This document shows, piece by piece, positions 40,156 through 46,859 of a stretch of 64,000 nt of DNA. The notes beneath the pieces were generated by a model that searched no databases, was not told the origin of the DNA, and saw nothing but the letters and a program-made list of their open reading frames with translations. The position numbers were made by a program, and so were the translations under genes. Position 1 is the first letter of the stretch. Every line of letters begins with the position of its first letter. This DNA is from Gemmatimonadota bacterium (lineage in GTDB: Bacteria; Gemmatimonadota; Gemmatimonadetes; Gemmatimonadales; Gemmatimonadaceae), in assembly GCA_026387915.1 (NCBI GenBank), contig JAPLKS010000017.1:248001-312000 (forward strand), read 5' to 3'.

Positions 40156-40509
40156 TCAGGCCAGGGTCGGCGGGGCCCGGGGCTGTTCGGCCGCGCGTGC
40201 GCGCGGCCCTGCGAAGGCGACACAGTCTTGCGTCGAGCCGAGGAGCAGAGCGCGACGGGGGACTCGCGGCGCGGGAGCTTCGCCCGGTGTCGCCGCGCCA
40301 TGCGACAGGAGCTGGCACAGCACGCAGTCGTCGGCATGCGTCGCCGCGCACCGAGGATGCGTGTGATCTTCGACGTGCGTCCGGAACGCGACGTCAGTCG
40401 TCCGCGCCGCAAGAGAGGCGTCGGCCACGGACGCCAGCGCGGGCGCTCCCATCTGCACGATGGCAAGCGCCAAGAACAGCACACGCTGGAGGAGGCTCCG
40501 GGACCGCAT
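40156..40509 (-). CDS. Short exported Cys/His protein, DUF2946-like
   Basis: A 117-residue protein with a hydrophobic leader (MRSRSLLQRVLFLALAIVQM) and a metal-ligand-like motif HADDCVLCQLLSHG around residue 60, plus other histidines (HVEDHTHPRC). The tail is Ala/Arg/Pro-rich. Proteins of DUF2946 type have this layout and often precede TonB receptors or copper genes; here the receptor lies 178 bp downstream on the same strand. Two start codons abut (GTG 40512, ATG 40509). A role in metal homeostasis is inferred from motif and neighbours only. Confidence 0.55.
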   Translation of the reverse strand: MRSRSLLQRVLFLALAIVQMGAPALASVADASLAARTTDVAFRTHVEDHTHPRCAATHADDCVLCQLLSHGAATPGEAPAPRVPRRALLLGSTQDCVAFAGPRARAAEQPRAPPTLA

Positions 40510-40763
40510 CACGGCGGAATGTACACATAACCCGCGCGTCTGTCACCGGCTGGCTTCGAGGCGCTCGCGCGCAGGCGGTGGCCGTGCGACCGCGTTAGGT
40601 CAACGACCCAACGGAGCCCCTCCCGGCGCAACGTACAGCGTCACGCGGCAGTAGCTGATGCCGGGCGCGCAGCGAGTTCGGTACTCCCGTCGTCGCGACC
40701 GAATGCGTCTCTCGACGCAGCCTGCGTGCGGGTTCGAGGTTATGAAACGCTCTCTTCTCTAAG

Positions 40764-42008
40764 ATGGACATCGCTCGAACTCCGCCTAGCAAGACACGCC
40801 GCAACCGGTTGATCGCGGCTGGTGTCGTTGCGCTTGTGCTTGTCAGCGTGTGGCTGATGCGCCTCGGCCCCGCCTCGCAGAGCGTGGACCGCTCGGCGGT
40901 GCTGATTGACAGCGTACGCAAAGGCGACGTGGTGCGCGACGTGCGTGGCCCCGGCACGCTGGTGCCGGAGCACATTCGCTGGATCACAGCGCAGGCGAGC
41001 GCACGTGTGGAACGGCTCGCGAGCGAGAGTGGCAAGCATGTGGGCACTGGGGAATTGTTGCTCGAGTTGAGCAACCCCGACTTGCAGATTCAAACGATGC
41101 AAGCCGAGCAGCAGGTGCGGCAAGCGCAGATTGAGTTGCTGAATTTAAAGACCAATCTGCGCGGGCAACTCCTCTCGCAGCAGGGCGTGGTGGCCACCAC
41201 GCACACGCAATATGTGAGTGCGACACAGGAAGCGATGGCTGCCGACTCGCTGTCCAAGCGCAAGCTGGTGTCGAGTTTTGAACTCGCCAACCGCACCGCG
41301 CTCGCCGAGGAATACACGACGCGCCTCCGGGTGGAGCAGTCGCGGTTGAAGCTGATGGAGCAGGCCATCGATTCGCAGATCGCGACGCAGGCGAGTCAGG
41401 TGGTGCAGCTCCGTGCGATTGCGGACAATCAGCAGGAGCGGTTGCGGTCATTGATGGTACGGGCGCCTGAGGGCGGCGTGCTGCAAGATCTCACGTTACA
41501 ACTCGGGCAGTGGGTGCCGGCAGGCGCGACGCTCGCGAAAGTGGTGCAACCTGGCACGCTGAAAGCCGTCTTGCGCATTCCTGAGGGGCAGGCCAAGGAT
41601 GTGGCTATCGGCCAGAAGGCGAGCGTGGACACGCGCAATGGCATTGTGGCCGGGCATGTGACGCGCAAAGATCCGTCCGCGCAGAATGGCACCGTGACGG
41701 TGGATGTGTCGCTGGACGGTGCATTGCCAAAAGGCGCCGTGCCCGATTTGAGTGTGGATGGCACCATTGTGATCGAGAAACTCACCAACGTCATGTACAG
41801 CGGCCGTCCGTCCTTTGGCACAGGCGCTGGCACGGCCTCGCTCTTCAAGTTGGTGGACGGCGGCAGGGCGGCCGTGCGCGTGTCGGTGGAGCTGGGGCGA
41901 AGCTCGGTAAACGTTATCGAGATCATTCGCGGGCTCGAGGTGGGAGACAAAATCATCGTATCCGACATGTCGCAGTACGCGAATGCGGCTCGTCTGCGCC
42001 TCAAGTAG
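40764..42008 (+). CDS. MacA/HlyD-type periplasmic adaptor
   Basis: A 414-residue membrane-fusion protein: N-terminal TM anchor (about 16-32), lipoyl/barrel-sandwich halves (about 60-100 and 230-260), a long coiled-coil hairpin (about 105-225, rich in Gln/Glu and heptads), and a beta-barrel/proximal domain. Adaptors of this type join an inner-membrane pump to an outer-membrane channel. The partner ATPase follows 25 bp later, but no permease is adjacent. The nearest same-strand candidate is the duplicated permease at 34240-36705. The 254 bp before this gene hold no other gene that I see. Confidence 0.85.
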   Translation: MDIARTPPSKTRRNRLIAAGVVALVLVSVWLMRLGPASQSVDRSAVLIDSVRKGDVVRDVRGPGTLVPEHIRWITAQASARVERLASESGKHVGTGELLLELSNPDLQIQTMQAEQQVRQAQIELLNLKTNLRGQLLSQQGVVATTHTQYVSATQEAMAADSLSKRKLVSSFELANRTALAEEYTTRLRVEQSRLKLMEQAIDSQIATQASQVVQLRAIADNQQERLRSLMVRAPEGGVLQDLTLQLGQWVPAGATLAKVVQPGTLKAVLRIPEGQAKDVAIGQKASVDTRNGIVAGHVTRKDPSAQNGTVTVDVSLDGALPKGAVPDLSVDGTIVIEKLTNVMYSGRPSFGTGAGTASLFKLVDGGRAAVRVSVELGRSSVNVIEIIRGLEVGDKIIVSDMSQYANAARLRLK

Positions 42009-42033
42009 TCCTGACCTTCAACGGAACTAGACG

Positions 42034-42732
<699 letters not shown>

Positions 42733-42777: not shown

Positions 42778-43380
42778 TTACGGTTCCGCCGCAAGAATGG
42801 CCTTGAGGCCGGCGACGATCTCGTCGACGCTGGCCTCGTAGCGGAACTGGAGTCGCACCCGTCCTTTTGTGTCGAGTGCGTACAGGGTGGTGGTGTGCGT
42901 CACCGAGTACCGTGCGGCGGATTCCGGTTTCGGGACGATTTCATAACTGGCGCCATACATTTTAAGCACACGATCGATGTCGGCGCGCGAGCCCGTCAGC
43001 CCCACCGCGTCGAGGTCGAAGCTGGCGAGGTCCACCTTGAGGACTTCGGGTGTGTCGCGCTCGGGATCGACGGTGATGTAGAGCGTTGTGATCTTCGTGC
43101 GCTCATCGCCGAGCCGGCGAACGACGGACGACAGCTTGGAGAGTGTCGTGGGGCAGACGTCGGGGCAGAGGCTGTACCCAAAGAAGATGAGCACCACCTT
43201 GCCGCGGAGCGATGTTAACGCGAACGGCGTGCTGTTGTGGTCGGTGAGCGTGAAGTCGCCGCCCGTGGACTGCACCGGAAGCGACTGGGCCGGTTGGCCC
43301 AGTCGCGACACGGCGACCCATGCGACGACGAGGAGGAGTGGGGCCAGCGTCACCCACCACCACCGCGTGCGGCGACTCAC
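42778..43380 (-). CDS. SCO1/SenC copper chaperone for cytochrome oxidase
   Basis: A 200-residue SCO-family protein with an N-terminal membrane anchor (about 8-25) and a thioredoxin-fold domain outside. Copper ligands are C72 and C76 (LCPDVCPTT) and H161 (SVTHTTTLY). SCO proteins deliver copper to the CuA site of cytochrome c oxidase or act as thiol reductants. Its start overlaps the PCuAC stop by 4 nt, making a three-gene coupled unit: PCuAC-cytochrome c, PCuAC, SCO1. Confidence 0.92.
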   Translation of the reverse strand: MSRRTRWWWVTLAPLLLVVAWVAVSRLGQPAQSLPVQSTGGDFTLTDHNSTPFALTSLRGKVVLIFFGYSLCPDVCPTTLSKLSSVVRRLGDERTKITTLYITVDPERDTPEVLKVDLASFDLDAVGLTGSRADIDRVLKMYGASYEIVPKPESAARYSVTHTTTLYALDTKGRVRLQFRYEASVDEIVAGLKAILAAEP

Positions 43381-43856
43381 TTCATCCCTTCCATCTTTCG
43401 CACCGGCGCCGCGACGGAAAGCTTGGTGCCGTCATCAAGCGTAAGCGTCATCTTCACGGTGTCACCCGTCGTGAGTGGCTTCTTGAGGCCGAAGAGCATG
43501 ATGTGCAGGCTCCCTGGCTTGAGTTCCACTTTGCCGTGTGCGGGGACGTCGATCGATTTGACCGGTGACATTTGCATCATGGAGCCGTTGGCTTTCATCT
43601 CGTGGAGTTCGAGGGTGTCGGCCACATCGGTCTTTCCGCTCACGATGGAACGGCGTGTCGCGCCACTGTTCTCGACGGTGACAAAGACGGCCGTCACTGT
43701 GCGACCTGCGGCGGCTTCGCGCGCCCACGCATCGTGGGCGGTGATGGCGGTGTTCTGGGCGAGGAGGGCATTGGTGATGGCGGGCGCAGCGCTACTCGCG
43801 AGCGCGACGGTAGCGCTAAGGAGCGCGACGTGGAAGAGGCGGGCGGTCGGCATCAT
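43377..43856 (-). CDS. Periplasmic copper chaperone PCuAC
   Basis: A 159-residue secreted protein of the PCuAC (DUF461) family. It has an N-terminal signal peptide (about 1-33) and a cupredoxin-like domain with ligands in LELHEMKANGSMMQM and PGSLHIML (the H...M...HxM arrangement). PCuAC hands Cu(I) to the CuA centre, usually with SCO1, which overlaps it downstream by 4 nt. Upstream it overlaps a second PCuAC-like protein by 4 nt. The family assignment is firm; target specificity is inferred from the operon. Confidence 0.9.
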   Translation of the reverse strand: MMPTARLFHVALLSATVALASSAAPAITNALLAQNTAITAHDAWAREAAAGRTVTAVFVTVENSGATRRSIVSGKTDVADTLELHEMKANGSMMQMSPVKSIDVPAHGKVELKPGSLHIMLFGLKKPLTTGDTVKMTLTLDDGTKLSVAAPVRKMEGMK

Positions 43857-44749
43857 GGTTGGGATTTCCTTTCGTAGGTCGTATGGCGCAGCGACGTCAC
43901 ATACAGCGCGAGCGAGAGTCGCTCGTCGTTGGTGAGGTGTGCGAAGAGCGGCATGGCTCCGCCTTGTGCGATGCCCACGGCAATCGTGTGGGCAACGGCA
44001 GCAGGGTCGGTTCCATTCTTGAATGCAGCGCTGTCACGAAAATTGCGCGGTTGAGGGTCGAGTGTTTTGCCAATAGGGCCGTCGCCCTGGCCTGTGGGGC
44101 CGTGGCAGGTGGCGCATCCGTTTGCCAAATACAGCGTGCGTCCCTCCGCGACGGATGGAGCCGGAGCGGTGTTCCGTGTTCGACCGCTCACGGCGGCGAA
44201 CGCGCGAGCGAAGGCGGCTCGCATGGGTTGAGCCGTGGAAGTGGGGGCAAGCGCACTGTCGAGATCGTCGTAGGTCACGACGTGCGCAACGGAGAACGTC
44301 GCCCGCCCGCCGGAGAGTCGCACCGTTGCCCGCACGGTGTCGCCTCGCACGATCGGCCGACGAAAGTTTTCGACCATGGCATGAAACCCGCCGGGGGAAA
44401 AGCGAAGCGCTTCCCCCGAGGCAATCGGCACCGCTTCGACAGGGGTCATGAGTGCAAGCGATCCGCCGCTGGACGGCATGCGGTGTTGTTGCTGCGTGTG
44501 CATCGTGGTCTGGCTGGCAACGTCGACCGCGACGCCGAGGATCGTATCAGGGGCGGCGCCCCGGTTGTGCGCCGTGAAGTACACGGCCGCCGGCGCGCCG
44601 CCGATCGGTAGTACGAGCACCGCCTGCTCAATTGTCACGCCGCCACCCGCTGGCGCGCACGCAACGGTGAGCAGCGTGCAGAGCACGGCGCCGCTACGCC
44701 GGAAAAGTCTCCGTCGCGTCGGCCCGCGTGCTACGGACGAACGATTCAT
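43853..44749 (-). CDS. PCuAC domain fused to cytochrome c
   Basis: A 298-residue exported protein with two modules. After a basic N-terminus and a likely lipobox (TVAC, Cys31), residues about 38-160 form a PCuAC-like copper domain with H84, M101 and GFHAM (H123, M125). After a linker rich in Ala/Thr/Pro, residues about 200-290 are a class I cytochrome c with CATCH (C212, C215, H216), GDGPIGKTLDPQPRNF and a distal Met in GGAMPLF. Such a fusion links copper delivery and electron transfer at the membrane. It is the first gene of the coupled PCuAC/SCO1 unit. I know of both families separately; the fusion itself is unusual. Confidence 0.85.
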   Translation of the reverse strand: MNRSSVARGPTRRRLFRRSGAVLCTLLTVACAPAGGGVTIEQAVLVLPIGGAPAAVYFTAHNRGAAPDTILGVAVDVASQTTMHTQQQHRMPSSGGSLALMTPVEAVPIASGEALRFSPGGFHAMVENFRRPIVRGDTVRATVRLSGGRATFSVAHVVTYDDLDSALAPTSTAQPMRAAFARAFAAVSGRTRNTAPAPSVAEGRTLYLANGCATCHGPTGQGDGPIGKTLDPQPRNFRDSAAFKNGTDPAAVAHTIAVGIAQGGAMPLFAHLTNDERLSLALYVTSLRHTTYERKSQP

Positions 44750-44894: not shown

Positions 44895-45320
44895 TCAGTC
44901 GGCGAGCGCGGCGGGTGGGCCGTTCGCAAAGGGGAGCAGCCGATCGCGCGACGGTGCACGGCGTGGTGCGGACTCGATGCTCGTCGCGTCCGCGTCGCGG
45001 ACCGGCGGCGTTGGCAGCAGGCCGATCACACTGAGGAGCGCCACGGTCGGCGCACCGCAACAGTTCGTGGGACAGTCGCAGGGGTGCGCCGGCATTGGCG
45101 TCCCTGGGCGCGTAGGCATCGGCGCCTTTGCTGATCCCGCCCCCATTTCGTGATCACAGGGCATGCTCGCCGTGTGATTAGCATTCACTGCCTGCCCTGC
45201 CGTATGGGCGGCGCCGTGCATTGGGCAGGGACGCCACGCGCTCGGCATCGCGCTGAACAGCGCAAAGAATGCGCTCAACAGCGTGCTAAAGACGCGATGC
45301 GAACGGGAGCGTCGGAGCAT
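44895..45320 (-). CDS. Secreted Cys/His/Met-rich protein, likely metal-binding
   Basis: A 141-residue protein with a hydrophobic leader (MLRRSRSHRVFSTLLSAFFALF) and a dense series of candidate ligands: CPMHGAAH, MPCDHEMG, and CDCPTNCCG around residue 90. A second hydrophobic patch (VALLSVIGLLP) follows. The ATG at 45318-45320 begins the leader; the longer frame adds 12 residues without leader character. It precedes the PCuAC/SCO1 unit by 145 bp on the same strand. It resembles small periplasmic copper-resistance proteins, but I recognise no exact family. Confidence 0.6.
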   Translation of the reverse strand: MLRRSRSHRVFSTLLSAFFALFSAMPSAWRPCPMHGAAHTAGQAVNANHTASMPCDHEMGAGSAKAPMPTRPGTPMPAHPCDCPTNCCGAPTVALLSVIGLLPTPPVRDADATSIESAPRRAPSRDRLLPFANGPPAALAD

Positions 45321-45446: not shown

Positions 45447-46859
45447 TTACGGAACCTTCGGTTCCTTGCCCCCAGCCTTCGGCGGCGGCACCGGTTCATG
45501 TCGCGGCACCACGATTTGCCCGCGCTGCACCTGCAGGCGCCCATCGCGAATGACGAGGTCTACATTCGCGATGTCATCCAACACCACATCAGGACGGCCA
45601 GCCACCACGAGCACGTCGGCGAGTTTGCCGCGTTCGAGGGTGCCGAGTTTGTCGCCCATGTCGAGCAACTGCGCGTTCACGCGCGTGGCAATGCCGAGGA
45701 CTTCGGGCACGGTGTAACCGAGCCGGACGAACTGGCGCATCTCCTCGTGATAGGGCCACGGGAGGTAGCGATACCAGTCGGAGACGAGGTCGGTGCCGAT
45801 GCCGAGCGTAATGCCCGCGTCCTTCATCTTCTTGACGAGCGTAAAGTTTGCGGAGTCAGAGAATGTGAAGCGGCGGCTGGTGGAGCCGAAGTAGCCACCG
45901 CTCAGGCGGAAGATGATCGAGTACGGGATGAGCGTTGGGTCTGAGGCCACTTTGCGCTCTGCCATCAGCTTGATCGTTTCGTCGGTGCGGGGGAGCGGGT
46001 GTTCGATCATGTCGACGCCCGCGCGGACGGCCCGCTCGATGTAGAACGTCTCGGCGTCGGCGATGATCTTCACGCCGAGTTCGTGCGCTTCGGTGACGGC
46101 GGCGCGGATTTCTTCGTCGGAGAAGTGGCTTGCCACTTTGATGAAATCGGCGCCTTTGCGCACCTGATCGCGTACGGCGTCGCGCCACGCATCGGCTCCG
46201 GATGCTTCGCGCACGCTCGGGAGGGCGCGCGCGCCGTCAATCTCGACTTCGCCGCCATGACCGCCGCGGCCAACGATCAGTGAGCCCGCCGCAAAAATGC
46301 GTGGTCCGGCGAGCCGCCCTTCGGTGATCCACTGCTTGAGCACAAAGGGGGTTTCGCGATCGGAGCCCGTGTCGCGAATGGTGGTGATGCCCCCTTCGAT
46401 GTAGTATCGCAGCCGCTCGACGCCGCGCAACGCGCCGTCGGCCAAGCTGAAGGCTTGCGCATCGGAGTTGCCTGGGTTGCGATAATCGATGTGCGTGTGG
46501 AGGTCGATGAGCCCCGGCATGACGGTTTTGCCAGCGACGTCGATGACGCGTGCGTCCTTGGGCCAGTTGGTGCTACCGGGCGGAAGGATGGCGGCAATCT
46601 GGTTGCCGGTGATTACGACCGTCGCATTCCGGGCCGGAGCGCCGGTGCCGTCCCAGAGGCGACCGCCGGTGAGGACGATGCTGCCGGTGGGGGCGTAGTA
46701 ACCGGGCGGCATCGGAACGCGGCGCGGGTCGTTACTCGTGGCGGTGCTTGAGTCGAGCCACCGCCAGCGTTCCGTGCGTGGCGTCTGCGCGGCAGCGGTT
46801 GCGGTGAGCGTGGCGAGCGCAACAAGCGAAAGCGCGTGGAGCTCAAGACGACGACGCAT
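45447..46859 (-). CDS. Secreted amidohydrolase, imidazolonepropionase-like
   Basis: A 470-residue amidohydrolase with a signal peptide (MRRRLELHALSLVALATLTATAAA). Metal residues of the TIM barrel: LIDLHTHID (HxH), the bridging-Lys region in DFIKVASH, DAETF replacing the usual His-rich strand, MIEHPLPR (His), and GIGTDLVSD (Asp). Members act on imidazolonepropionate, Xaa-Pro dipeptides or related cyclic amides. Its export argues for peptide or xenobiotic hydrolysis. It stands alone, with the copper genes downstream. Confidence 0.85.
   Translation of the reverse strand: MRRRLELHALSLVALATLTATAAAQTPRTERWRWLDSSTATSNDPRRVPMPPGYYAPTGSIVLTGGRLWDGTGAPARNATVVITGNQIAAILPPGSTNWPKDARVIDVAGKTVMPGLIDLHTHIDYRNPGNSDAQAFSLADGALRGVERLRYYIEGGITTIRDTGSDRETPFVLKQWITEGRLAGPRIFAAGSLIVGRGGHGGEVEIDGARALPSVREASGADAWRDAVRDQVRKGADFIKVASHFSDEEIRAAVTEAHELGVKIIADAETFYIERAVRAGVDMIEHPLPRTDETIKLMAERKVASDPTLIPYSIIFRLSGGYFGSTSRRFTFSDSANFTLVKKMKDAGITLGIGTDLVSDWYRYLPWPYHEEMRQFVRLGYTVPEVLGIATRVNAQLLDMGDKLGTLERGKLADVLVVAGRPDVVLDDIANVDLVIRDGRLQVQRGQIVVPRHEPVPPPKAGGKEPKVP

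Follow-up and report, generated by a model that had tools for sequence, protein, structure and literature searches.

A PCuAC domain joined to cytochrome c, mostly without its copper ligands, in a conserved PCuAC-SCO operon of Gemmatimonadota

Two redox questions are unsettled in the assembly of CuA centres, namely how periplasmic Cu(II) becomes Cu(I) for PCuAC and SCO, and how the final oxidation state of the mixed-valence CuA pair is attained. In vitro work supplies ascorbate for copper reduction (PMC13006917). A 64,000-nucleotide stretch of a Gemmatimonadota genome (contig JAPLKS010000017.1, positions 248,001 to 312,000; hereafter the window) encodes a single polypeptide in which a class I cytochrome c comes after a PCuAC copper chaperone domain, and a protein linking heme c to the copper machinery in this way gives genetics and biochemistry a direct way into the redox step. 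A first-pass annotation of the sequence had proposed a tethered heme reductant beside a Cu(I) carrier. We asked whether the fusion is genuine, whether its PCuAC domain can be expected to carry copper and what its heme might do. The features of the gene are as follows.

43853..44749, minus strand: PCuAC-cytochrome c fusion, a probable lipoprotein of 298 aa (ORF matching PF04314 and PF00034; full-length homologues in 13 other genomes)
44657..44749, minus strand: predicted signal sequence and lipobox LTVAC, ending in C31 (from sequence; Cys invariant in 14/14)
44303..44611, minus strand: PCuAC domain, residues 47-149 (Pfam 66.8 bits; AF2 model, VIA Z 16 against solved PCuAC domains)
44498..44500, minus strand: H84, canonical Cu(I) ligand 1 (His in only 3/14 homologues)
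44483..44485, minus strand: H89, hairpin His (invariant in the 14/14 cytochrome-fused domains; not family-wide in other PCuAC domains)
44447..44449, minus strand: M101, canonical Cu(I) ligand (Met in 9/14)
44375..44383, minus strand: H123-A-M125, canonical Cu(I) ligands (His in 5/14, Met in 6/14)
44153..44302, minus strand: end of the PCuAC region and variable linker, residues 150-199 (length differs among homologues)
43889..44152, minus strand: class I cytochrome c domain, residues 200-287 (Pfam 40.7 bits; in 14/14 members)
44102..44116, minus strand: heme c attachment motif CATCH, residues 212-216 (from sequence; CXXCH invariant in 14/14)
43952..43954, minus strand: M266, presumed distal heme ligand (invariant in 14/14; role by analogy with class I cytochromes c)

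The reading frame is uninterrupted by stop codons, and both domains score well above their Pfam cut-offs on the same polypeptide (29.4 bits for PF04314, 21.3 bits for PF00034, Cytochrom_C); no NCBIfam model rose above its own cut-off for the protein. The PCuAC ligands and the CATCH motif lie exactly where the first-pass annotation had placed them, and both domain identities thus held. All four ligands of the primary Cu(I) site are present in the window protein, arranged as H84-X16-M101-X21-H123-X-M125. The textbook His-to-Met spacing in PCuAC is 10, and the larger value of 16 found here reflects an enlarged hairpin in the fusion. An X16 spacing still fits the definition of the primary site, HXnMX21/22HXM (PMC13006917). 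As C31 is invariant in the alignment and the residue before it is mostly Ala or Gly, the lipobox proposed earlier is plausible despite a non-ideal Thr at -3, and the exported protein is probably anchored through a lipid on C31, facing the periplasm.

A profile built from three fusions recovered full-length copies in 14 of the 288 genomes of the order, at 226-545 bits, whereas the next matches fell to 120 bits and lacked the cytochrome. These 14 genomes represent two families and eight genera. With 14 carriers among 288 genomes, the distribution of the module within the order is sporadic. All 14 aligned fusions match both Pfam families (PCuAC at E <= 0.001), and the 13 homologues are 38-50% identical to the window protein. 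The first-pass annotation had itself raised the possibility of a sequencing frameshift joining two genes; the recurrence of the joined form in 13 other genomes excludes this, together with mis-joined genes and assembly artefacts. It had also pointed to a possible internal start near 44200. Translation from there would have to yield a cytochrome c with a signal peptide of its own, but the Met in question ('QPMRAAF') is followed by no evident one, is absent from most relatives and lies in the linker of variable length, and a separate start was accordingly rejected. No further fusions were found in 395 evenly drawn genomes of the phylum beyond those of the order, nor any in 398 Pseudomonadota genomes, both searches being based on homology, which an unrelated fusion made independently would escape. 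Among 72,556 plasmids, 59 records matched in part and none reached 80% coverage, and scans of viral contigs returned no homologues. No description of a PCuAC-cytochrome c protein was found in the openly licensed papers searched.

The fold of the N-terminal domain was assessed from an AF2 model, in which this domain reached a pLDDT of ~85-95, with ~62 at the hairpin tip, while the cytochrome half was poorly modelled (~60; 6 rows). The modelled domain has a cupredoxin-like fold with a protruding beta-hairpin, and its VIA-align scores are highest to ECuC (3zja, Z 16.2, 2.0 A across 113 residues), PmoF2 (6p1g, 16.0), AccA (9yah, 15.6) and TtPCuAC (15.5), which disposes of the earlier concern that it might lack the PCuAC fold. 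With the PCuAC chaperones as a group (TtPCuAC, DR1885, AccA, ECuC/SCO3965; Z 13.6-16.2) the fusion has in common the fold, PF04314, a neighbouring SCO and, in the window protein, the HXnMX21HXM motif; it differs in its probable lipid anchor, its cytochrome c, its enlarged hairpin with an invariant His and the loss of ligands in most homologues. According to earlier work cited in PMC13006917, the PCuAC domains of the methanotroph proteins PmoF1 and PmoF2 have the fold but lack the canonical primary site, a ligand turnover of the kind found in most fusions; they use a His brace and have no cytochrome. The model also aligns with 7qhm_U, 7q21_L and 8ovd_W (VIA Z ~11, 109 residues), chains of actinobacterial III2-IV2 supercomplexes that, judging from entry titles and papers, correspond to P29/LpqE. 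No PDB sequence among the matches listed combined PCuAC with cytochrome c. In Proteobacteria, PCuAC is joined to another periplasmic copper-related domain, DUF1775 (YcnI), with no heme (PMC8424229).

Three genes, all on the same strand, make up the immediate setting of the fusion.

43377..43856, minus strand: free PCuAC chaperone, 159 aa, with four Cu(I) ligands and no His-rich tail (Pfam 127.7 bits)
42778..43380, minus strand: SCO1/SenC, 200 aa, with CPDVC (Pfam 138.2 bits)
44895..45320, minus strand: small exported Cys/His/Met-rich protein, 141 aa, with weak resemblance to DUF2946 (homologues directly upstream in 11/13 other fusion operons)

The order is thus Cys-rich small protein, PCuAC-cytochrome c, PCuAC and SCO, and the translational coupling claimed at first reading corresponds to four-nucleotide overlaps at both junctions, between the fusion stop and the free PCuAC start (43853-43856) and between the free PCuAC stop and the SCO start (43377-43380). 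When 6-15 kb around each copy was searched with phmmer, PCuAC and SCO followed the fusion in 14/14 genomes, and a Cys-rich ORF preceded it in 12/14, the window included. In an all-against-all comparison of ORFs, no other flanking gene was common to more than a few genomes. A ligand-complete free PCuAC and SCO, the CuA-assembly factors named in the first-pass annotation, therefore share an operon with the fusion. A sigma-70 promoter scan found nothing. A functional link to the efflux genes at 40764-42732 or to the amidohydrolase at 45447-46859 was set aside because these flanks are not conserved. Since the free PCuAC lacks a His-rich Cu(II) tail it should carry Cu(I) only, and something must then generate that Cu(I) or later oxidise it.

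Whether the fused domain itself carries copper is a separate matter. All four ligands are found in only two of the 14 cytochrome-fused domains, those of the window protein and of genome G241; at least one is lost in 12/14 and at least two in 11/14. In contrast, the 35 PCuAC domains without a cytochrome (26 free, 9 SCO-fused) all keep four, a difference with a Fisher p of ~1e-9 over rows that are not phylogenetically independent, and the free PCuAC next door does so in every scored case. The primary-site ligands are thus not conserved across the orthologous fusion family, whereas CXXCH, M266, C31 and H89 are invariant in 14/14, as are E41, P119 and V157 of the fused PCuAC domain. Over 13 genomes mean pairwise identity was 61% for SCO, 59% for the cytochrome c, 54% for the free PCuAC and 36% for the fused PCuAC, which was less conserved than its free counterpart in 77 of 78 genome pairs. 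In a tree of 49 PCuAC domains the cytochrome-fused ones formed one clade (93/95), and ligand-complete domains, from SCO-PCuAC proteins and free lipoproteins, stood near but outside it. From this comparison the ancestor of the fused domain was probably a copper-binding PCuAC, ligand loss being derived. AccA shows a null phenotype once two or more residues of its primary site are mutated (PMC13006917), and most members of the family are therefore unlikely to be classical Cu(I) chaperones. Because the enlarged hairpin cannot be aligned with certainty, H89 might stand in for H84, and H89 with M101 could form an alternative site; methanotroph PCuAC domains show that another copper site is possible in this fold (PMC13006917, PMC8424229).

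These results bear directly on the proposal that the fusion is a genuine metallochaperone for Cu(I), with the heme tethered to it reducing the copper from Cu(II) within the one polypeptide ahead of delivery. In its favour, the four ligands of the window protein show the X21 and HXM spacings, G241 has four as well, and the extra H89 and M91 close by recall the 'track' described in AccA (PMC13006917). However, such a mechanism works only if Cu(I) is carried by the fused domain, and the extent of ligand loss, set against the AccA null phenotype, together with a next gene that already encodes a fully competent PCuAC, makes this proposal unlikely. The reductant idea of the first-pass annotation may thus hold for this organism and was not upheld as a general mechanism.

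The fusion is a new combination of domains in a known pathway, with the twist that the copper ligands are mostly lost and the heme is kept. The explanation we prefer, and hold tentatively, is that the protein is a heme-bearing accessory factor of a compact CuA-assembly module in which the PCuAC-derived domain serves mostly as a docking scaffold; it would probably dock to the copper carriers and help them with redox chemistry instead of carrying copper of its own. A pseudo-chaperone that has abandoned copper carriage and presents a heme to the hand-over machinery, with CuA metallation or PCuAC/SCO loading being redox-gated, is conceivable though on the unlikely side. If true, it would give heme c a role in copper-site assembly that is undescribed in the literature searched.

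Fusions of PCuAC to SCO provided a further indication of the pathway. Six same-genus genomes without the cytochrome fusion carry SCO-PCuAC as a single chain (L007-L010, L012 and L013), and genome G046 has the reversed PCuAC-SCO arrangement (L014), which is an independent functional link to SCO. In the same-genus genomes without the cytochrome fusion, the closest PCuAC domain is the SCO-fused one. SCO-PCuAC and PCuAC-SCO proteins have the PCuAC domains closest in sequence to that of the window (~31-44% identity) and share with the fusion a C-terminal 'YxDLDxA'-like tail; unlike the fusion they have SCO in place of cytochrome c, and every one keeps all four ligands. PCuAC of this type thus stands before or after SCO in one chain, or else is fused to cytochrome c with SCO encoded nearby, a pattern that speaks for PCuAC, SCO and the cytochrome acting in one pathway. 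A related genome (L055) also encodes a single-chain SCO-PCuAC fusion.

The genomes were also inspected for proteins that would receive a CuA centre. COX2 was present in 27/27 genomes checked. In the window genome it has the CuA motif CVEYCGTSHANM and a fused cytochrome c of its own (caa3 type), and lies ~90 kb from the fusion operon on the same contig, while a full-length nosZ is found on another contig; the genome thus has CuA targets, both encoded outside the operon. With a cytochrome c built into COX2, there is no obvious need for a bulk electron donor. nosZ occurs in 12 of the 14 fusion genomes (two as fragments) against 126/288 overall (Fisher p 0.0015, uncorrected for relatedness), yet genome G169, which is a single contig, has the operon and no nosZ. 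A role for NosZ only is weakened by this genome, the target is not fixed by the enrichment, and CuA in general is our best guess. Genome G239 has three nosZ-like genes (756-920 bits).

The nosZ association would also suit a subunit associated with the oxidase or N2O reductase, in which the PCuAC fold docks like LpqE and the cytochrome c feeds CuA during respiration. The alignments to 8ovd_W, 7qhm_U and 7q21_L mentioned above agree with this, and LpqE keeps cytochrome cc closed beside CuA (PMC8523172). LpqE/P29 is a structural subunit with no covalently attached heme domain, and its likeness to the fusion is one of fold, not sequence; it sets a precedent for docking by a PCuAC-like lipoprotein beside heme c and CuA. 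We nevertheless consider it improbable that the fusion is such a subunit: its gene keeps company with those for assembly factors rather than with oxidase or nosZ genes, a cytochrome c is already part of the oxidase polypeptide, and G169 maintains the operon without nosZ. Still less likely is a redox sensor or a metal reductase/oxidase acting, by analogy with the cytochrome c domain of FTR1-type iron permeases, in general periplasmic copper (or iron) homeostasis rather than in CuA assembly. The cytochrome domain of the fusion is close to 6h5l_B and to those of cytochrome c-FTR1 permeases, which are among its closest relatives outside the family and set a precedent for heme c in metal handling. 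These are iron membrane permeases without a PCuAC domain, and in the fusion PF03239 is absent and the ORF ends after the cytochrome. Against a general homeostatic role, the constant SCO and PCuAC partners point to CuA assembly, and the operon has no conserved permease, sensor kinase or regulator. An ordinary cytochrome c bearing PCuAC as an evolutionary passenger with no specific role would be in line with the fused domain diverging fastest, but is highly improbable given a PCuAC match in 14/14, with no member having lost the domain, and the invariant E41, H89, P119 and V157.

A working scheme for the accessory factor can be put forward on this basis. The exported protein, held by its C31 lipid, would face the periplasm, where in most of the family the N-terminal domain, once a Cu(I)-binding PCuAC, would dock to partner chaperones, the apo CuA protein or both, and the flexible linker would let the cytochrome c reach copper as it is handed over. 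The predicted heme would then give or take one electron, setting the right oxidation state of copper on PCuAC/SCO or at the CuA site, the target being the CuA of the caa3 oxidase and possibly that of NosZ as well. One option is that the heme would reduce Cu(II) on its way to a Met/His site for Cu(I), a reaction within reach of a His/Met cytochrome c with an ordinary potential; in the other it would accept the electron freed when a site filled with Cu(I) turns into mixed-valence CuA. Counting against the scheme, Thermus CuA was assembled in vitro by PCuAC and SCO without a cytochrome (PMC6696091), the window protein itself keeps its four ligands, the operon contains no oxidase or nosZ gene, and the module occurs only sporadically in the order. 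The natural series of homologues, from ligand-complete to ligand-free, would allow copper binding to be told apart from heme function without mutagenesis.

Several minor observations were made in and around these operons. The 44895-45320 product matched no Pfam family; it carries CPMH, CDC...CCG and a C-terminal RLLPFANGPP, and is a candidate for a new copper-handling family. At 40156-40512 on the minus strand an ORF matching DUF2946 (23.8 bits) lies beside genes for an HlyD-type membrane-fusion protein and an ABC ATPase (40764-42732), and is possibly a second copper-related gene. In the G241 operon (L035) the free PCuAC is interrupted by an in-frame TAG in the hairpin region (L035:4680-4710), either a MAG error or a broken gene, and the fusion linker has an extra CXXC-type CASCD just before CATCH that is absent from the other 13 fusions.
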